Positions 16,753 to 26,122 of a stretch of DNA of 64,000 nucleotides are shown in pieces. The translations under genes and the position numbers were made by a program. A model generated the notes under the pieces. The model had not been told where the DNA came from and did not search any database. It worked only from the letters and a program-made list of their open reading frames with translations. The stretch comes from Kiloniella sp. EL199. GTDB taxonomy: Bacteria > Pseudomonadota > Alphaproteobacteria > Kiloniellales > Kiloniellaceae. Where the stretch lies: NCBI RefSeq assembly GCF_900313065.1, contig NZ_OMPU01000006.1:502734-566733 (forward strand). The letters run 5' to 3'. Position 1 is the first letter of the stretch. Each line of letters opens with the position of its first letter.

Positions 16753-17277
16753 ATGACTGATGAAACTGTTGGCGAAGAAGAACTAGAGGTAGAAGCCCGA
16801 CCGACAGGCGGGATGTCGGGGAAGAAACTCGTTCTTTTTTTCATATTGCCTTTGTTGTTAATATTAATAGCAGGTGCCGGCGCTTATTTTACAGGTATGC
16901 TTGATTCATTGTTGGGTAAAGAAGAAGTCGTTGAAGAAGAGGTTGTTGAGGAGGTTATTCCTGCGCATGGCCCTGCAGCATTTTATGATGTGCCGGAATT
17001 ACTGGTTAATCTTAATTCTTCTGGTAACAAGAAACACTTTTTGAAGATTACAATTAGTCTGGAACTGGAAGCGCAAACAGATATTCCTGGTATAGAAGCA
17101 GTGATGCCGCGGATTGTTGACAACTTTCAGGTATATTTACGTGAACTCAGAATTGAAGATTTGAGCGGGTCAGCCGGTATTCAGCGTTTGAGAGAAGAGT
17201 TACTCCTTCGGGTCAATGCTGCGGCTGCTCCTATTAAGGTGAAAGATGTATTGTTTCAGGAAATGCTGGTACAGTAA
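16753..17277 (+). CDS. fliL: flagellar basal body protein FliL
   Basis: FliL is a single-pass inner-membrane protein that surrounds and supports the stator. The 174-residue protein has a short cytoplasmic tail, one membrane helix (about 25-46, LVLFFILPLLLILIAGAGAY), a Glu/Val-rich linker (EEVVEEEVVEEVIP) and the periplasmic FliL domain. That domain runs from YDVPELLVNLNSSGNKKHFLKITISLEL to RIEDLSGSAGIQRLREELLLRVN. It is first in the fliL-fliM-DUF6468-motE operon. Confidence 0.93.
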   Translation: MTDETVGEEELEVEARPTGGMSGKKLVLFFILPLLLILIAGAGAYFTGMLDSLLGKEEVVEEEVVEEVIPAHGPAAFYDVPELLVNLNSSGNKKHFLKITISLELEAQTDIPGIEAVMPRIVDNFQVYLRELRIEDLSGSAGIQRLREELLLRVNAAAAPIKVKDVLFQEMLVQ

Positions 17278-17292: not shown

Positions 17293-18381
17293 ATGGCTGA
17301 CGAAACGGAAGAAGAAGTCGATCAGGAAGCCATGATGGCCGAATGGGAGGCTATGGCGGATGAAGATGCGGATGAGGCTGATGATGTTTTCGATGAAGTC
17401 GATGACGGTCCTGGCGGTACGCGTGTTCTAGACCAAAGTGAAATTGACAGTCTCCTTGGTGTTGACGCCGGAGATGATGATGGTGGAGACAATTCGGGAA
17501 TTCAGGCAATTCTCAATTCTGCTCTGGTATCTTACGAGCGTCTCCCAATGCTGGATATTGTTTTTGACCGTCTGGTCAGAATGATGTCCACGTCTTTACG
17601 TAATTTTACTTCCGATAATGTTGAAGTGAGTTTGGATAACATTACATCAGCGCGATTTGGTGATTATCTCAATTCAATCCCTCTGCCTGCAATGTTGACT
17701 GTCTTCAAGGCTGAAGAGTGGGATAACTACGGTCTGATGACTGTTGATTCAGCGTTGATATATTCAATCGTTGATGTGTTGCTTGGCGGACGTCGAGGTA
17801 CAGCAGCGATGAGAATTGAGGGGCGCCCCTATACAACAATTGAGCGAAACCTGATTCAAAGGCTGGCCCATGTTGTTTTGGCGGACCTGTCCAGTGCATT
17901 TGATCCTCTTTCTCCTGTTACTTTTAGGTTTGATCGGCTGGAAACAAATCCGCGGTTTGCTACAATCGCGCGGCATGAGAATGCTGCTATTGTGATCACC
18001 TTACGTGTCGACATGGAAGATCGAGGCGGGCGTGTTGAACTCCTCATTCCCTACGCAACGCTTGAGCCAGTTCGTGAACTGTTACTACAGATGTTTATGG
18101 GGGAAAAGTTTGGTCGGGATTCCATTTGGGAGGGGCATCTTACTGCTGAGTTATGGCAGACAGATGTTTCTATTTTGGCTGTGTTAGAGCAGGTGAATAT
18201 CTCTCTTGGTGATGTAATGAATTGGAAAGTTGGTGATACGATGGATCTCACTGTTTCTCCGGAATCACTGGTGGAATTGAGATGTGGTGATGTTTCCATG
18301 TTTAAAGGTAATATGGGCCGGAAGAGTGGTAACATTGCGGTGAAAATCGCCAATAAGATCGCTCGTGATGATGGCGAATAA
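17293..18381 (+). CDS. fliM: flagellar switch protein FliM
   Basis: FliM is the C-ring switch component that binds CheY-P. The 362-residue protein carries the CheY-binding motif LDQSEIDSLLG at 46-56. A 45-residue, very acidic N-terminal extension (EEEVDQEAMMAEWEAMADEDADEADD) precedes it, whereas in enteric FliM the motif is at the extreme N-terminus. The CheC-like middle (LDIVFDRLVRMMSTSLRNFTS, DVLLGGRRG) and the SpoA-type C-terminal domain (VEQVNISLGDVMNWKVGDTM) are intact. No fliN or fliG is in the window. Confidence 0.95.
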   Translation: MADETEEEVDQEAMMAEWEAMADEDADEADDVFDEVDDGPGGTRVLDQSEIDSLLGVDAGDDDGGDNSGIQAILNSALVSYERLPMLDIVFDRLVRMMSTSLRNFTSDNVEVSLDNITSARFGDYLNSIPLPAMLTVFKAEEWDNYGLMTVDSALIYSIVDVLLGGRRGTAAMRIEGRPYTTIERNLIQRLAHVVLADLSSAFDPLSPVTFRFDRLETNPRFATIARHENAAIVITLRVDMEDRGGRVELLIPYATLEPVRELLLQMFMGEKFGRDSIWEGHLTAELWQTDVSILAVLEQVNISLGDVMNWKVGDTMDLTVSPESLVELRCGDVSMFKGNMGRKSGNIAVKIANKIARDDGE

Positions 18382-18384
18382 GTG

Positions 18385-18870
18385 ATGTTGGATATCTCGA
18401 ATATTGAGCTTGGATTTAATATCCTCGTTGCGATCTTGCTGGTCGCAACGATTGTGTATGCCGTGATCTTGAATAAAAAGCTGGATGCCTTACGAGAAGC
18501 CAAGGCCGAGATGGAAGGGTTGATTGTCTCCTTTGCTGATACAACGGCAAAGGCGGAAAAAAGCCTTGCTGAATTTAAGGCCCATGCTTCTGATACTGGA
18601 TCAGGCCTCAAGGAGAATACTGTTAAAGCTGATGGAATATTATCTGACTTGAGCTATTTGGTTGATCGGGCCGAGGTTGTCGCGGATCGTTTGGAAGAAG
18701 ACCTTGGTCTGGCCCGGGAAAAATCTCCTGAAACTGTACTCCCCAAAGGCGTGAAACCAGGAGATATCAAACAGAACAAGGTCAAGCCCGTTAATCAAAA
18801 AGGGGAGGCAAAAAAAGATTTGTCACCTGCTGCAGAAGACCTTTTGAAAACCCTCAAAGGCATGCGTTAA
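18385..18870 (+). CDS. DUF6468 flagellar-operon protein
   Basis: A 161-residue protein with one N-terminal membrane helix (about 9-29, LGFNILVAILLVATIVYAVIL), a long helical, probably coiled-coil stretch (30-115) and a Lys/Pro-rich tail ending LLKTLKGMR. It matches the alphaproteobacterial family I know as DUF6468, found between fliM and motE. Its role in the flagellum is not established. I take ATG 18385; a GTG directly before it (18382) is equally possible. It starts right after the fliM stop. Confidence 0.7.
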   Translation: MLDISNIELGFNILVAILLVATIVYAVILNKKLDALREAKAEMEGLIVSFADTTAKAEKSLAEFKAHASDTGSGLKENTVKADGILSDLSYLVDRAEVVADRLEEDLGLAREKSPETVLPKGVKPGDIKQNKVKPVNQKGEAKKDLSPAAEDLLKTLKGMR

Positions 18871-19640: not shown

Positions 19641-19677
19641 GCCCTGTATCCGTTGGGATATGGGGCTTTCTTTTTCT
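19641..19677 (+). terminator. terminator after fliL-motE operon
   Basis: GCCCTGTATCC (19641-19651) pairs with GGATATGGGGC (19656-19666) with two G-U pairs around a GTTG loop. A T-rich run of TTTCTTTTTCTT follows. Confidence 0.8.
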
Positions 19678-19748: not shown

Positions 19749-19819
19749 TTCTATGCTGGTAGCTTGAAATCACAATTTAAGCGAATGTGTGTGCAAGAGA
19801 GATAGTTAAGGAGTTGCTG

Positions 19820-20209
19820 ATGTCGGATGTCGACATGAATATGCCAATCCTCATCGTGGATGATTATAAAACCATGTTGCGTATTGTGCGCAATTTGCTC
19901 AAGCAGCTAGGCTTCAACAATGTTGATGAAGCGACAGACGGCAGCAGTGCGTTACAAAAATTGCGTGGCAAGCAGTATAGTCTGGTTATTTCTGACTGGA
20001 ATATGGAGCCAATGAGTGGTCTTCAGTTACTTAAAGAGTGCCGTGCAGATGCACATTTGAAAGATCTGTCTTTCATTATGGTCACCGCTGAGAGTAAAAC
20101 AGAAAACGTTATCGCTGCAAAACAGGCGGGTGTGAACAATTATATTGTGAAACCATTTAATGCTGCGACCCTCAAGAAGAAGTTAATCGCGGTACTTGGG
20201 AACTTCTAA
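19820..20209 (+). CDS. cheY: chemotaxis response regulator CheY
   Basis: A 129-residue single receiver domain. It has the acidic pocket D14/D15, phospho-acceptor D59 ([10 protein letters not shown]), switch threonine T89 in VTAES and K111 in VKPFNA. The sequence closely follows classical motor-binding CheY. The start is ATG 19820 with AAGGAG six bases upstream; a GTG 33 bases earlier lacks a ribosome site. It heads an operon with cheZ and motB genes. CheA and the receptors are not in the window. Confidence 0.93.
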
Positions 20210-20221
20210 GAGGTTAATGTT

Positions 20222-20872
20222 ATGGCCAACCCGGTCAGAGAAGAGTTGCTCGAAAAACTAAAGACCTTTGAAAGTAATGCACAAGATGCAGACCTTGAAG
20301 CATTGGTGGACAGTTTGTTGCAAAACTTTGGTGAAGATGCAGTTGAAACCAATCATAAGCTTTTAGCTGAGATTGGATCTGTTGCAAGTTATATTCACGA
20401 TATGAAAACGCAACTGGCTTCCTTGAGGCCTGATGAGATTAAAAGTGACTTTCTTCCTACCGCGGCGGATGAACTGGATGCTATTGTGGGGGCTACTGAA
20501 CAAGCCACCCACAACATCTTGTCCGCTATGGAAACCTTAGAAGAAGTATCTGAAAAGCTTGAAGATTCTCCTCTTACTGACAAAGTAAATGATGCGGTGA
20601 CTCAAGTTTATGAAGCCTGCAGTTTTCAGGATATTACGGGCCAACGTATTTCAAGAGTAGTAAATGCTCTTCAACACGTGGAAATTAAAGTAGATAAATT
20701 GCTCGGCGCATTTGGTGGTGAGGAATTTCTACCGGATAATACAGACGCGAAACCGACACCTAAACGTGCTGACGGGGTGGAGAGGCCTGATGAAGACCTT
20801 CTCAATGGACCTCAATTACCGGGCGAAGGTGTTAGCCAAGATGATATTGATGCCTTAATGGGATTTGATTAG
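20222..20872 (+). CDS. cheZ: CheY-P phosphatase CheZ
   Basis: CheZ dephosphorylates CheY-P. The 216-residue helical protein contains the catalytic-helix signature ACSFQDITGQRISRVVNAL (about 131-149). The glutamine in FQDITGQ is the catalytic residue of the family. A flexible Pro/Asp-rich linker leads to the C-terminal CheY-docking helix VSQDDIDALMGFD, which closely resembles the CheY-binding motif of FliM in this genome. CheZ is found in only part of the alphaproteobacteria. It lies 12 bases after cheY. Confidence 0.9.
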   Translation: MANPVREELLEKLKTFESNAQDADLEALVDSLLQNFGEDAVETNHKLLAEIGSVASYIHDMKTQLASLRPDEIKSDFLPTAADELDAIVGATEQATHNILSAMETLEEVSEKLEDSPLTDKVNDAVTQVYEACSFQDITGQRISRVVNALQHVEIKVDKLLGAFGGEEFLPDNTDAKPTPKRADGVERPDEDLLNGPQLPGEGVSQDDIDALMGFD

Positions 20873-20877
20873 TTGAT

Positions 20878-21567
20878 ATGCTTGGCCTTCTATTTCGCAG
20901 ACGCCGAGACGATGGTGATCGAAATTATGTCGCTTTATTAAGCCTTAAGCTCCTGCTTTTGGCTTTTTTCATTATGCTCAATGCACTTTCTTCCTATGAA
21001 GAAGAAAAAGCCAGAGCAGTTTTGGAATCAGTGAATAATACTTTCCAGGGTGATGCAAGTCATATGGAGCGCCATGCTTCTTTTGATCAAGCGCTTGATA
21101 ATATTGATGATAAATCTGATCTCGTTGTAGAAATCGAACGATTGTTTGAAACCACGATTCCTGCCGTTGAAAGAGAGCAGGGGAGTACTCAGAACTTTTT
21201 ACGGTTAAGATTACCTGTTCGGGCAATGTTTCTCGAAGATGAAGTCGACCTTGCCTCAGGACGAGAACTTCTCTTGAAAAGGTTGGCCCAGTCTCTACAG
21301 AAACTTGATCTTGAAGAGCGTTACTATGAATTTGAATTTCTCTATGGGACTGCTGCACGTAATACAGACTCTCAAGCCGAATTATCTGACTTGATACTCA
21401 AGCGTTTGGAAGCTGTTGCAAACGAGATCGTTGCTGCGGGTATTCTCAAAAACAGGCTGGTCGTAGGTTTGCAACCCAATAGAGCTGGTTCTGTTTTTGT
21501 CGTTATTCGCATATATGATAAAGCTCCGCCAAATATCACTTTCAGCTCTTATCGGGAGGAAAGGTAA
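20878..21567 (+). CDS. MotB-like protein without proton-binding aspartate
   Basis: A 229-residue, single-pass membrane protein (helix about 18-37) whose N-terminus aligns with MotB of the next gene: SLKLLLLAFFIMLNALSSYEEEK against DLVALMLTFFVLLYSMS-VMEEK. The aspartate that carries protons in MotB (D86 there) is serine here (S22). The periplasmic part (100-225) looks like a shortened, degenerate OmpA-like domain (YEFEFLYGTAARN...ANEIVAAGILKNRLVVGLQP). It probably joins or regulates the stator but should not conduct protons alone. TAATG coupling to motB. Confidence 0.65.
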   Translation: MLGLLFRRRRDDGDRNYVALLSLKLLLLAFFIMLNALSSYEEEKARAVLESVNNTFQGDASHMERHASFDQALDNIDDKSDLVVEIERLFETTIPAVEREQGSTQNFLRLRLPVRAMFLEDEVDLASGRELLLKRLAQSLQKLDLEERYYEFEFLYGTAARNTDSQAELSDLILKRLEAVANEIVAAGILKNRLVVGLQPNRAGSVFVVIRIYDKAPPNITFSSYREER

Positions 21568-22472
21568 TGTCTGATCCCGGAAACACAAATAGAAACACAA
21601 ATAATAGTGGGAATGGAAAGCGGGCTGACGAACAAACTTCTACTCGTGCTGATAAGGTTTATGAAAATAGCAAGGGTGCCTCTAAGGATAGCGGCCAAGA
21701 GACTAAGGAACAAAAAGCTATTGCCCGGGTTATGCCAAAGATCAAACCTTGGATGAGCAGAAGGCAAAATGAGCAAACTGTTGCTGTGAATTACAGTTCT
21801 AGCTGGATGGTGACTTTCACCGATCTCGTTGCATTGATGCTGACCTTTTTCGTTCTATTGTATTCCATGTCTGTTATGGAAGAGAAGCAATGGAGAAACT
21901 TGATTGATTCTCTCGCAAGTAACTTGAAAATTGAAAGAATTATTGCAGAACCCAAACCAGCAAAAAGCCTGACAATGGAACCTGTTGATTTTATTCCAGG
22001 TGAAGATTTGGATTATCTCCAAGCCTTGTTATCAGAAAAGTTCAAAGAAGATGAGGGGTTATCTCAGGCCATTCTTACTCGATTGGAAGATAGTATTGTG
22101 GTTTCTGTTCCCGGTGATATTCTGTTTCCAACGGGCGCTAGCGAACCTTTGGAAGAGGCTAAACCTGTTTTGAAAAGGCTGGGCCGGATATTTCAGAACA
22201 TTGATAACCGCATTGAAATTGCAGGTCATGCAGATCCGGCGATTCCGTTAGGGCAGCAGAAGTTTCAAACAAACTGGCCACTATCTGTTGCCAGAGCTGA
22301 CTATGTTGCTGGTTTATTGGAAAAAACTGGGTATAAGAGTACAATTCTATCGCGTGGGTATGGTGATTCGCGTTATGATGAGATAGCCGATAGCTTACCC
22401 GAAGATCAAAGGAAAAAACTCGCGCGCCGTGTTGATATTATTGTGCATTCCTATGCAGGAGAAAATGGTTGA
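21567..22472 (+). CDS. motB: flagellar stator protein MotB
   Basis: A 301-residue stator subunit. It has a long hydrophilic N-terminal tail (1-75) and a membrane helix with the proton-binding aspartate D86 in MVTFTDLVALMLTFFVLLYSMS. A plug/linker and an OmpA-like peptidoglycan-binding domain (about 180-297, ILFPTGASEPLEEAKPVL, IEIAGHADPA, SVARADYVAGLL, RRVDIIV) follow. The N-terminal extension is longer than usual. No motA is adjacent, so MotA must be encoded elsewhere. Its ATG overlaps the upstream stop. Confidence 0.92.
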   Translation: MSDPGNTNRNTNNSGNGKRADEQTSTRADKVYENSKGASKDSGQETKEQKAIARVMPKIKPWMSRRQNEQTVAVNYSSSWMVTFTDLVALMLTFFVLLYSMSVMEEKQWRNLIDSLASNLKIERIIAEPKPAKSLTMEPVDFIPGEDLDYLQALLSEKFKEDEGLSQAILTRLEDSIVVSVPGDILFPTGASEPLEEAKPVLKRLGRIFQNIDNRIEIAGHADPAIPLGQQKFQTNWPLSVARADYVAGLLEKTGYKSTILSRGYGDSRYDEIADSLPEDQRKKLARRVDIIVHSYAGENG

Positions 22473-25400
22473 TTAAAGCGTTATGCCAAACATTTCTGGC
22501 AGGAGCGTTTTTGTTGTTTTTTTCTTCTGCTCCTGATGCTCAGGAAATTCCTGTCAGGGCAGGAATTCATCCTGGCTATGGCCGGATTGTTTTTGACTGG
22601 CCGCGGCAGGTATCCTATAGCGCGAGAATAGATAATGAACAGCTGATAATAGAATTTGATAATGCTGCTGACTATCGATTAGATAAAGTGCTTCAAGGCG
22701 TTAAGGGTTTTACGGGCAAGCCATCTATTGGTCCCGATAAAAAGGTTCTGACTTTTCCTTTGCTTGATGATTTTTCACTCAAGACTTTCAAGGCGGGGAC
22801 AAAAGTTATTGTCGATCTAAGGGTTGACGTGAATCAACCTCAAAGCCAATCAATTGGAAAAAACAAAAGTCCGTCTGTGCAGAGTGTTGGCTTTCGTTTT
22901 GCCGAACATCCTGATTATAACAGACTTGTTTTTGATTGGCCTGAAAAGATCAAAGGGGCTCTTTCTCAGTCAGGAAGTTCGCTGACTGTTCGTTTTGACA
23001 AAGATGCGACCGTTGACCTTCGGAAATTGAACAAACAAAAAATGCCTTTTGTGCAAAAAGGTCGGGTTATTGCAACGGAACCAAAGTTGATCATTGAGTT
23101 TGGGCTAGTCCCGCAAACACAAGCGCGTCTTTTTAATGTTGGTCCTAAATCCGTTATTGATGTTCAGACTGTCCCAGAAAAGCCAGTTGGGGCAAAGCCA
23201 AACGGGGAACAGAAAGTAGCTAACTCAAACAAGGTTGATGAGAAAAAGGCTGCTGCTAATACAATCAATTCAAAGAATTCACAACCAAAAAAAGAAGAAG
23301 ATGTCCCAGAGGTAAAAGCCACTCAGGCTCTCGACAAGAAGATTGAGAATGCAAACGAGGGAGCTTCAATCACCTTGCCTGAACTACAAGAACTCGCAGG
23401 GCCTGGACCTTTATCTCTCTTGCCAAAACCGGTGGGTTCTGAGGCCACCCAGGCTGTAGAAGAAACAGTAGAGACAGAAGATCGTGCAAAGCCGGCTGGT
23501 AATTCTGCAGTGGAAGAGAACGGCGGTAATGATCAGGCTGTAATCTCAAATGAGAGCAATGATCCAGTAAAACCAAGCACAGGTAATAAAGTAAGCACAG
23601 GGAATAAAAAGAGACTTTCCAAACCACAGGGGAGTAACTCTGGTCCTGTAAGGTTGTCAGAGTTCAAATTGGAGGATGATGACACTATTGGTGAAAGTGC
23701 AGAAGTTGGAGTTGAACAGGATCTTGTTACTCTGACTGAGCCCTTGGAAATTCCAAACCTTGTTCCTCCACCCGGACGTACCGCCAATTTGTTGCCTCCG
23801 ACAATTTTGAATTTCAACTGGGATCAACCAACTGGGGCTGTTGTCTTTCGGCGCGGAGAACACCTCTGGCTTGTTTTTGATCGTGAAGGGCCGGACAATT
23901 TGGCCGAAGCCATCGAAGCAATGGTGCCGCACTTTGCGCCCGTTGATACCCAGGAGGTTGCGGGGGCGACTGTAATTCGCCTTAGTGCCCCGGGTACACA
24001 GGTCCCAAGGTTAAGTAAGGCAGATAATACGTGGACTGTCGATATTCGCCGTCGTTCTCCTTTGCCTGTCCAGTCTATTTCAAATGTCTTGGGCGAGGGC
24101 GAAGATGGGCCAGAAGTTCGTTTCCTTGTTAAATCAGTTAGTCGTTTACTATCGCTTTCTCATCCTGAACTTGGGGATCGACTGATTGTTGCCCCTATAG
24201 GAGAGCCTAATCTTGGATCATCGAATATTGATGAGTTTCCACAGTTCAGATCCTTACCCTCTTATCAGGGAGTTGTTTTGCAGCCGACGGCTGAGGGGCT
24301 CGTTGTTGCTCTGACGCCCCGTGCTGTCGTTGTTCGCAGTCGTGACCAGTTGATTGTTTCAGACGAAACAGCCCGGTCACTCCCGCGTAGTGGTGAGATT
24401 ACTCCTTCAATACCTGTACGTATGCTTAATCTGGGTGCCGATCGATTGGGCAGTGAAGATGATTACCTAAGAAACCTCCAGGATCTTCAGCAAGCAGCTG
24501 TTGAAACAACAGGGATGCAGCAAGGCCTGGCACGTTTGGATTTGGCACGGTTCTTTTTTGCACATGGTCGTGTTGCAGAAGCGGCCGGCATGCTTAAGCT
24601 TATAGGTCAGGAAAATCGCCGCCTGAGTGATGATCCTTCCTATCAACTTCTGTTGGGTGCGTCTCAGTTTTTAAGTGATAAATTTGACGAGGCACAAAAG
24701 ACACTCTCAAGTCCGGTCTTGGCAGGTGAATGGGAAGCTAATCTGTGGCAGGCTGCGCTTGCTGCATCGGGGCAGGATTGGGGACCTGCGGCGATTGGTT
24801 TCACTGAAACCGAGGCCTTGATAGAAGATTTCCCTCGGAACATCCGAAATAAACTCTATTTGCTTGCTGCTGATTCGAAACTTCATGTGGGAGATACAGG
24901 AAGTGCAAGCCTGTTCATCGGGAAGGCTTTATCGGGAAATCCAACCGAGTTTGAAAAAGCTCAGGCTGATTTCCTTGAGGGCCAAAGGTTACTTCAAGAT
25001 GGTTTTCCTGAAGAAGCGCGAGCAATATGGAAAGGCCTGAAATATAACAGGCACCGTCCTACAAGTGCCAGGGCGCGGCATGCCCTTACAAAATTGGGAA
25101 TAGACGAAGGAACCATTACGCAGGAAGAAGGTATTGAGCAGCTTGAACAACTCAGATTTGCATGGCGAGGTGATAAATTTGAGTTTGCTATTCTGAGTGA
25201 GTTGGGGGACCGTTACGCTGATATTCTGGATTTTAGAAAAAGTTTGCACTCATTACGACAGGCAGCATCTTATTTTCCGCATTCTGAGCGTGCCGATAAA
25301 ATTGCAAAGCGGATGCAAGAAATCTTTGAAGGTATGTATATTGAAGATGGAGGGGAAAGAATACCTCCGCTGTCTTCCATTGCCCTTTATGAAGAATTTA

Positions 25401-26122
25401 AAGAACTGACCCCTTTGGGTGACAAGGGGGATACCATGATTACCAAGCTGGCGGATCGTCTTGTTGATGTTGATCTGCTTGAACAAGCAGGTAACTTGTT
25501 GGAAGAGCAGGTTGAATTCCGCCTTGAAGGCGAAGAAAAAGCTCGTGTTGGAAGTCGTTTGGCCCTTATTCGTTTGCTTGAAAAGGACGCGGAAGAAAGC
25601 CTTGCTGCTCTGGATAAAACGAGTAGTGATAATTTACCAAAGGATTTGATTCAACAACGCTTACACTTGCGTGCACGGGCTTTGGCTGAACTCTCACAGG
25701 AAAAAGAAGCGTTGGATTTACTGGCTAAAGATCAAAGTCTGGATGCTTTACGTTTAAAAGCGGATATTCTCTGGAAACAACGAAAATGGGATGAGGCAGG
25801 AAAGATGCTTGGGAAACTGATTCCGGCCTCTCCACCTACAGATCGTATTTTGGGTGACAAAGAAAGTCAGGCTGTTATTAATCTTGCTATTGCACAAACT
25901 CTGTCTGGTGATAACGAGGGGCTTAAGCTCTTGAGAGACAGTTATAGTTCTATTATGAGTAAGGGGACACATAGCGATACCTTCAAGCTTTTAACCAATA
26001 GCTTGAATTCCGGTTCTGTAACATCGATCGCAGATGAGTTAAAACAAGTTTCTCAGGTTCAGGCCTTTATGGATCAGTATCGTAGTAAACTTAAGTCATC
26101 CCCTCTGAGTGAAATAAATTAA
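22469..26122 (+). CDS. large exported AMIN/TPR-like protein
   Basis: A 1217-residue protein with a Sec signal peptide (cleavage after DAQ region, about 24). Two similar beta modules (about 28-110 and 136-210: HPGYGRIVFDWP and HPDYNRLVFDWP) are followed by a low-complexity Lys/Glu/Asn linker (215-430) and a third related module near 446-520 (FNWDQPTGAVVFRRGEHLWLVFD). A long helical repeat region of TPR type runs from about 665 to the end. The beta modules resemble AMIN domains, which bind peptidoglycan or secretin-like partners. The TTG start overlaps the motB stop and has GGAGAA upstream. Its coupling to motB suggests a periplasmic motor or envelope scaffold; function unknown. Confidence 0.7.
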   Translation: MIKALCQTFLAGAFLLFFSSAPDAQEIPVRAGIHPGYGRIVFDWPRQVSYSARIDNEQLIIEFDNAADYRLDKVLQGVKGFTGKPSIGPDKKVLTFPLLDDFSLKTFKAGTKVIVDLRVDVNQPQSQSIGKNKSPSVQSVGFRFAEHPDYNRLVFDWPEKIKGALSQSGSSLTVRFDKDATVDLRKLNKQKMPFVQKGRVIATEPKLIIEFGLVPQTQARLFNVGPKSVIDVQTVPEKPVGAKPNGEQKVANSNKVDEKKAAANTINSKNSQPKKEEDVPEVKATQALDKKIENANEGASITLPELQELAGPGPLSLLPKPVGSEATQAVEETVETEDRAKPAGNSAVEENGGNDQAVISNESNDPVKPSTGNKVSTGNKKRLSKPQGSNSGPVRLSEFKLEDDDTIGESAEVGVEQDLVTLTEPLEIPNLVPPPGRTANLLPPTILNFNWDQPTGAVVFRRGEHLWLVFDREGPDNLAEAIEAMVPHFAPVDTQEVAGATVIRLSAPGTQVPRLSKADNTWTVDIRRRSPLPVQSISNVLGEGEDGPEVRFLVKSVSRLLSLSHPELGDRLIVAPIGEPNLGSSNIDEFPQFRSLPSYQGVVLQPTAEGLVVALTPRAVVVRSRDQLIVSDETARSLPRSGEITPSIPVRMLNLGADRLGSEDDYLRNLQDLQQAAVETTGMQQGLARLDLARFFFAHGRVAEAAGMLKLIGQENRRLSDDPSYQLLLGASQFLSDKFDEAQKTLSSPVLAGEWEANLWQAALAASGQDWGPAAIGFTETEALIEDFPRNIRNKLYLLAADSKLHVGDTGSASLFIGKALSGNPTEFEKAQADFLEGQRLLQDGFPEEARAIWKGLKYNRHRPTSARARHALTKLGIDEGTITQEEGIEQLEQLRFAWRGDKFEFAILSELGDRYADILDFRKSLHSLRQAASYFPHSERADKIAKRMQEIFEGMYIEDGGERIPPLSSIALYEEFKELTPLGDKGDTMITKLADRLVDVDLLEQAGNLLEEQVEFRLEGEEKARVGSRLALIRLLEKDAEESLAALDKTSSDNLPKDLIQQRLHLRARALAELSQEKEALDLLAKDQSLDALRLKADILWKQRKWDEAGKMLGKLIPASPPTDRILGDKESQAVINLAIAQTLSGDNEGLKLLRDSYSSIMSKGTHSDTFKLLTNSLNSGSVTSIADELKQVSQVQAFMDQYRSKLKSSPLSEIN

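Follow-up and report, generated by a model that had tools for sequence, protein, structure and literature searches.

What is the large protein encoded directly behind a motB gene in the flagellar cluster of Kiloniella sp. EL199, and how does it serve the motor? We addressed this question in a window of 64,000 nt (contig NZ_OMPU01000006.1, positions 502,734 to 566,733; genome assembly of 4.18 Mb in 19 contigs), in which the gene, hereinafter designated P, reads forward from a TTG start through 1217 codons and is open throughout and intact. Among named records, Kiloniella majae and K. spongiae come nearest, at 85% in the best segment, followed by K. litopenaei at 78%; Novispirillum itersonii has the P gene as well. 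Homologues in 55 of the 61 genomes of the order, and in 203 of the 387 genomes of a sample of the class, confirm that P is real beyond chance. We conclude that P is very probably the Kiloniellales representative of the MotK/FssB (CC_2058)/PflA-like group, a periplasmic spoke that joins the E-ring, the cell wall and the stators. The coordinates of P, its modules and its neighbours are collected in the table below.

The structure of P was predicted with AlphaFold from 24 aligned sequences, with a mean predicted local distance difference test score (pLDDT) of 74.8 and a predicted template modelling score (pTM) of 0.49. P begins with a hydrophobic segment of export type, which is conserved in relatives, as judged by eye. 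In the numbering of the mature protein, in which residue 1 is amino acid (aa) 26, the model contains two AMIN-like beta domains (1–95 and 112–210), a disordered stretch (212–392), further beta structure (395–600), and a helical TPR array (629–1185). Specifically, the strand order of mature residues 420–503 repeats that of the first AMIN module, and hhalign aligns the two AMIN modules with the middle region of P at a probability of 96.6 (E = 6e-10); a third AMIN-like module at about mature residues 415–505 is therefore likely. The initial annotation, made from the sequence, had proposed repeated AMIN-like beta modules, a long disordered linker and a long TPR-like half, and had named structure prediction as a check; the prediction recovers this layout. 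In the Pfam scan of P, no family passed its cut-off: the scores were 19.6 bits for the AMIN-like family (cut-off 27), 23.3 bits for TPR_19 (25), and 24.9 bits for ANAPC3 (27.2).

The disordered linker is mostly unconserved among the 24 sequences, but it contains one short conserved motif, P-x-SLLP (aa 314–319, positions 23408–23425). Judged by its conservation, this stretch is a candidate partner-binding or docking motif. In Campylobacter jejuni, the linker of PflA is reported to wrap the partner protein PflB (PMC11870540, PMC12222027).

Profile comparison places P with the MotK-like proteins. A Rhodobacterales-type genome (L120) contains fliL, a short gap, motE, motA, and then a gene for a 747-aa AMIN protein, and this order matches the order fliL-pflI-motE-motA-motK reported for Paracoccaceae (PMC10954123). 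We sought relatives of this MotK-like protein in 61 genomes of the same family; 40 gave a match, and 30 sequences were aligned. hhalign of the P family against these 30 proteins gives a probability of 99.8 (E = 2.5e-29) for the TPR part and 98.0 (E = 2.4e-13) for the AMIN part, with 0.4 for the reversed control; with 16 of the 30 proteins the corresponding values are 99.7, 97.8 and 0.7. In reciprocal profile searches, run without filters and scaled to a search size of 177,635, all 24 P proteins are detected by the MotK profile at E ≤ 1.6e-6, while the P profile finds 18 of the 30 MotK-like proteins at E < 1e-5 and 20 at E < 0.01.

The same family extends to Caulobacter-type genomes. Two genomes score above the Caulobacter FlgE cut-off of 750 bits (845 and 844 bits); a further genome from their family reaches 640 bits. 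All three of these Caulobacteraceae-type genomes encode P homologues, at E-values from 7e-140 to 4e-167, and the MotK profile finds the same three proteins (E = 1.9e-12, 6.7e-6 and 3.8e-5). Deletion of Caulobacter fssB (CC_2058) is reported to leave the filaments in place but to abolish motility, as does deletion of motB, and a role in stator activity was concluded (PMC7885107). Similarly, MotK and MotE are reported to be periplasmic, to bind each other and MotB2, and to be needed for rotation, and the mutants keep their filaments (PMC10954123). A review of 2026 groups MotC, MotK and CC_2058 together as PflA-like proteins that partner the E-ring (PMC13023049).

The predicted fold points in the same direction. 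Foldseek ranks chain 9hmf_K, from a periplasmic scaffold of C. jejuni, first among 350,542 chains of the PDB (E = 6.5e-10). PflA is described as an AMIN domain, a linker and a TPR spoke (PMC11870540); its spokes are reported to carry a PflB rim and to place the stators, and the E-ring to space PflA from the MS-ring (PMC11870540, PMC12222027). C. jejuni PflA is matched by fold alone, as searches of PDB chains with the P sequence and the P profile gave no match to it. With the single P sequence, no PDB chain was matched at E ≤ 1, and the best chain found by the P profile, with default filters, is a designed TPR (E = 0.015); PilQ scores E = 0.031. The 50 matches that VIA-align 2 listed are TPR proteins together with a PilQ entry, 3jc8 (Z = 12.7, root-mean-square deviation (rmsd) of 13.2, 186 residues aligned).

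P is tied to the flagellar motor by its neighbours. The order fliL-fliM-DUF6468-motE-cheY-cheZ-MB1-MB2-P, in which MB1 and MB2 are MotB-like genes, is near-invariant across 40 loci of the order. motE lies upstream of P in 38 of them, the other two (L058 and L074) being cut by contig ends; MB2 is likewise present in 38 loci (not in L069 and L074), and MB1 in 36 (not in L058, L066, L069 and L074). Among eleven further loci, picked elsewhere in the class mostly because MB1 was missing, motE is linked to P in nine. motE and P occur without MB1 and MB2 in six loci, with motE just before P in L258, L259 and L263 and with cheZ intervening in L255, L256 and L260, and all four genes are present in L261, L262 and L265. 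In L257 and L264, no match to motE or the MotB pair accompanies P within the stretch searched. The description of the locus as a stator operon is right, but the operon is an unusual one: MotB-like genes occur in it twice, and motA is absent.

The start codon of P also connects it to MotB. The TTG start and the TGA stop of MB2 run together as TTGA, an overlap of 4 nt; the initial annotation had pointed out that start and stop overlap. In close relatives the start lies at the same place, as TTG or GTG. Among the 38 relatives that allowed this measurement, 28 have an overlap of exactly 4 nt between the motB stop and the nearest start of P, and the MB1-MB2 junction has a 4-nt overlap in 25 of 36; both counts lean high because the script takes the start nearest to the upstream stop. 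Translational coupling would set the ratio of P to MotB.

The distribution of P follows that of the flagellum. FliM is present in 219 of the 387 class genomes and is shared with P in 193; 26 genomes contain FliM only, 10 contain P only, and 158 contain neither (Fisher p = 2e-66, uncorrected for relatedness). The FliM match is weak (E > 1e-30) in 18 of the 26 FliM-only genomes. We suspect that the FliM-only genomes have rhizobial-type flagella, which use MotC.

Synteny, profile homology, the fold match and the FssB phenotype together make a spoke of the MotK/FssB/PflA type the most likely identity of P, and they lend good support to the earlier suggestion of a periplasmic scaffold for stators. 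In this reading, P would be exported to the periplasm, a location that, like MotE and MotB binding and mutant paralysis, comes from papers on relatives of P. The AMIN modules would probably bind peptidoglycan and partners. As a spoke, the TPR superhelix would connect the stator units, whose genes lie just upstream, with the E-ring that MotE forms around the MS-ring, and MotB would be recruited to the motor and unplugged via P. P is homologous to the proteins of its relatives and lies in a corresponding gene order, and it would act in the same way.

Several points weigh against this assignment. The superposition on 9hmf_K is global and loose (TM score of 0.14–0.19, rmsd of 38), and other TPR proteins follow it closely at E = 1e-8, so the fold alone does not prove kinship to PflA. 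Chain K of 9hmf is presumed to be PflA from its length and the title of the entry, and 9hmf is not among the VIA-align 2 matches listed, which excludes nothing. The middle beta region of P has no counterpart in the 30 MotK-like proteins (hhalign probability 1.0), and 10 of the 30 gave no match to the P profile below E = 0.01, 3 of these being unlisted. The family link was made via MotK-like and Caulobacteraceae-type relatives, not via the sequences of CC_2058 or of MotK from Cereibacter sphaeroides. Peptidoglycan binding by the AMIN modules of P is presumptive. Finally, 10 of the 203 P genomes have no FliM match, and 26 of the 219 FliM genomes have no P.

Of the rival explanations, the one that survives best is an unlikely one taken by itself, although it is compatible with the spoke as a special case of it: P could anchor itself to peptidoglycan and bear the load of stators whose MotB domain has decayed, in place of part of the grip of MotB on the cell wall. 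The two AMIN modules and the third AMIN-like one fit this role. Moreover, the Asp of the peptidoglycan motif is replaced in 23 of 79 MB2 proteins (16 of 39 in the order and 7 of 40 class-wide), and two of the 79, L063 and L065, have lost the Arg as well, while P stays; these losses might be a sign that part of the anchoring load falls on the scaffold. However, the Arg is kept in 77 of the 79, MB2 of the window keeps both residues, and peptidoglycan binding by AMIN is putative here. Among the alignments used, A1 contains 24 sequences, A2 omits L053 and A3 omits L063 for doubtful coordinates; the motif count covers all 79.

Alternatively, P could be a MotC-like stability or assembly factor that keeps MotB and MotE folded and unplugged and forms no lasting spoke. 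The coupled start codons would suit such a factor, made at a fixed ratio to MotB. Against it, a MotK-sfGFP fusion is reported at the flagellated pole in dependence on MotA2/MotB2 (PMC10954123), MotC, unlike MotK, is described as having no AMIN domain (PMC13023049) whereas P has several AMIN modules, and the top fold match of P is a structural scaffold. We regard this explanation as improbable. The initial annotation had also offered a FimV-type organiser or polar landmark. That P is such a FimV/HubP-like organiser of the pole, serving the motor among its clients, is barely credible: the export-type N-terminus, long disordered linker and TPR half of P recall the general shape of FimV, but FimV carries LysM, the Pfam scan of P has no LysM at E ≤ 1, and P is closely linked to motE, fliM and motB and tracks FliM (193 of 203 genomes). 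Synteny also rules out an ordinary AMIN protein with no tie to the motor.

The two MotB-like genes upstream of P raise a second question, namely what stator the scaffold would hold. MB1 aligns with MB2 by hhalign at a probability of 98.9 (E = 3e-17), and its periplasmic domain is predicted to fold well, in an OmpA/MotB-like fold; MB1 is a true MotB homologue with a transmembrane/plug segment and an OmpA-like periplasmic domain. The site of the ion-carrying Asp is nevertheless Ser, Gly or Ala in all 77 MB1 copies read (37 including that of the window, and 40 class-wide from the strongest-scoring genomes), and it is Ser in the window; MB2, in contrast, keeps the channel Asp in 79 of 79 sequences. 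In MB1 of L045 there is an Asp at another site, nearer the helix end. MB1 thus lacks, in 77 of 77, the channel Asp expected of an ion-conducting MotB. A pseudogene is ruled out, as MB1 is open and conserved and its periplasmic domain folds well. In titles and abstract openings of the literature on flagellar MotB stators, subscription papers being outside the scope, we did not find an Asp-less MotB partner described.

MB1 and P travel together. In 48 of the 50 top-scoring genomes, MB1 is found upstream of P at a distance of no more than 6 kb, and in the other two the genes are split over contigs. For the next 42 genomes the place of P was given in 30, and MB1 is adjacent in 23 of these; of the rest, five have MB1 on another contig, either in draft assemblies or at or close to the end of a contig, G344 has it on another contig, and G173 has it nearby on the opposite strand.

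A candidate MotA partner is encoded outside the operon. A PomA-type motA (L033; contig C16, 480948–481784) is located in the same genome about 42 kb upstream of the motB of the window, on the other strand, adjoining genes that resemble fliH and fliN (named by eye). Its product is the likely partner of the motB of the window. A separate, canonical motA-motB pair (L034 and L036) is found on contig C8. Together with this pair, MB1, MB2 and the PomA-type MotA give the organism two sets of stators. P is present in every one of the 92 genomes with MB1 (E ≤ 1e-10), and a PomA-type MotA (E ≤ 1e-50) in 89 of them, compared with 10 of the 111 P genomes without MB1; these counts are of related genomes, with both thresholds chosen after inspection of the lists. 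The three MB1 genomes without PomA-type MotA are G107, G163 and G165. Conversely, twelve genomes have PomA-type MotA without MB1 at the threshold, and five of them contain weaker matches to the MB1 profile (G126, 2e-10; G302, 1.2e-9; G277, 3.6e-9; G088, 1.3e-8; G223, 8.9e-8), which may be MB1 or another MotB. On this co-occurrence, MB1, MB2 and the PomA-type MotA look like one inherited unit.

The Asp-less MB1 and its co-occurrence with MotA suggest a stator with two unlike MotB chains. We tentatively propose a second kind of stator, one-site and asymmetric, in which five PomA-type MotA chains surround an Asp-bearing MB2 and an Asp-less MB1 and which is held and unplugged by the multi-AMIN protein P; this arrangement is possible rather than probable. 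In such a stator, MB1, conserved class-wide without the Asp, could conceivably act as a structural partner or anchor the scaffold in the membrane, a role we propose with similar reserve. As alternatives, MB1 could be a membrane anchor of P or a non-conducting spacer.

Table. Features of the P locus, in positions of the window (position 1 is its first letter)
Feature	Position	Strand	Basis
fliL	16753..17277	+	profile matches
fliM	17293..18381	+	profile matches
DUF6468 protein, same cluster	18382..18870	+	Pfam
MotE/FlgY/FlbB-type E-ring protein, 232 aa	18881..19579	+	MgtE_N 27.2 bits (cut-off 25.9); FlbB collar E 6.6e-7, below cut-off
cheY	19787..20209	+	profile matches
cheZ	20222..20872	+	Pfam
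MB1, Asp-less MotB-like protein, 229 aa	20878..21567	+	MotB_plug 26.6 bits (cut-off 24); hhalign; OmpA/MotB fold
MB2, MotB-type protein, 301 aa: plug/transmembrane segment with channel Asp, OmpA-like domain	21567..22472	+	Pfam MotB_plug and OmpA over cut-off
P, MotK/FssB/PflA-like periplasmic scaffold (very probable)	22469..26122	+	1217 aa, TTG start
P: export-type N-terminal segment, aa 1–25	22469..22543	+	sequence; hydrophobic N-terminus conserved in relatives
P: AMIN module 1, aa 26–120	22544..22828	+	AlphaFold fold; hhalign to MotK AMIN, probability 96.1
P: AMIN module 2, aa 137–235	22877..23173	+	AlphaFold fold; hhalign to MotK AMIN, probability 98.0, E 2.4e-13
P: disordered linker, aa 237–417 (about 180 residues)	23177..23719	+	pLDDT < 50; motif conservation in 24 sequences
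P: AMIN-like module 3 (likely), about aa 440–530	23786..24058	+	AlphaFold strand order; hhalign; no MotK match
P: further beta module, about aa 535–625	24071..24343	+	AlphaFold
P: TPR superhelix, aa 654–1210	24428..26098	+	AlphaFold; TPR matches by Foldseek and VIA-align

Two further observations concern the neighbourhood. In one genome of the order (G012, loci L069/L124), cheY, cheZ, MB1 and MB2 are absent, P follows directly after motE, and no fliM match was found nearby. In the window, a stem of 11 pairs with a T-rich tail behind it lies between motE and cheY (19641–19666) and could split the operon; 12 sites with a stem and T-tail were found in the region against 10.3 expected, hardly above chance.

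P is a larger form within the already known, little-studied MotK/FssB/PflA-like family; what is new is its layout with several AMIN modules, the wide spread of the family, and the two MotB-like genes that precede P. Earlier studies of the E-ring/spoke scaffold covered a small number of genera (Cereibacter, Sinorhizobium, Caulobacter, Campylobacter, Helicobacter and Borrelia); with the homologues of P, it reaches about half of the genomes in a broad sample of alphaproteobacteria. Such scaffold proteins have been said not to be conserved at the sequence level (PMC11870540), and usable sequence profiles were obtained for them here. The Asp-less MotB partner is the part that would surprise specialists. 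The paired MotB genes bear on the question of whether both MotB chains of the 5:2 stator must carry the ion-binding Asp, and, if the proposal holds, the MB1/MB2 stator may be a natural one-site version.

Among known systems, the gliding motor of Myxococcus, AglRQS, resembles the MB1/MB2 set in that a single MotA homologue is joined by two distinct homologues of MotB, AglQ and AglS (PMC9120999). The likeness is one of gene set alone, and AglRQS drives gliding, unlike the flagellar MB1/MB2. MotC of Sinorhizobium meliloti is, according to papers on it, a periplasmic TPR protein and a partner of MotE, and its gene lies just downstream of motB, but it is described without AMIN; it is set apart from P by this description, not by sequence. 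PflA of C. jejuni and Helicobacter pylori shares with P an AMIN-like beta-sandwich, a flexible linker and a TPR spoke, and differs in its partner PflB, for which no counterpart was identified alongside P. FssB (CC_2058) of Caulobacter crescentus is reported to have a Sec signal and TPR and to be needed for stator activity (PMC7885107); the Caulobacteraceae-type homologue L257 has 959 aa and, unlike the P locus, no match to MB1, MB2 or motE within the 10 kb examined. MotK of the C. sphaeroides Fla2 system, compared through the MotK-like proteins of one Rhodobacterales-type family and not through the C. sphaeroides protein itself, is about half the size of P, has one AMIN domain, and is encoded after motA instead of motB. 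Like P, it is an AMIN and TPR protein encoded in a flagellar cluster with motE; it is exported, as P presumably is too, and the MotK-like proteins share profile homology with P in both the TPR and the AMIN parts.

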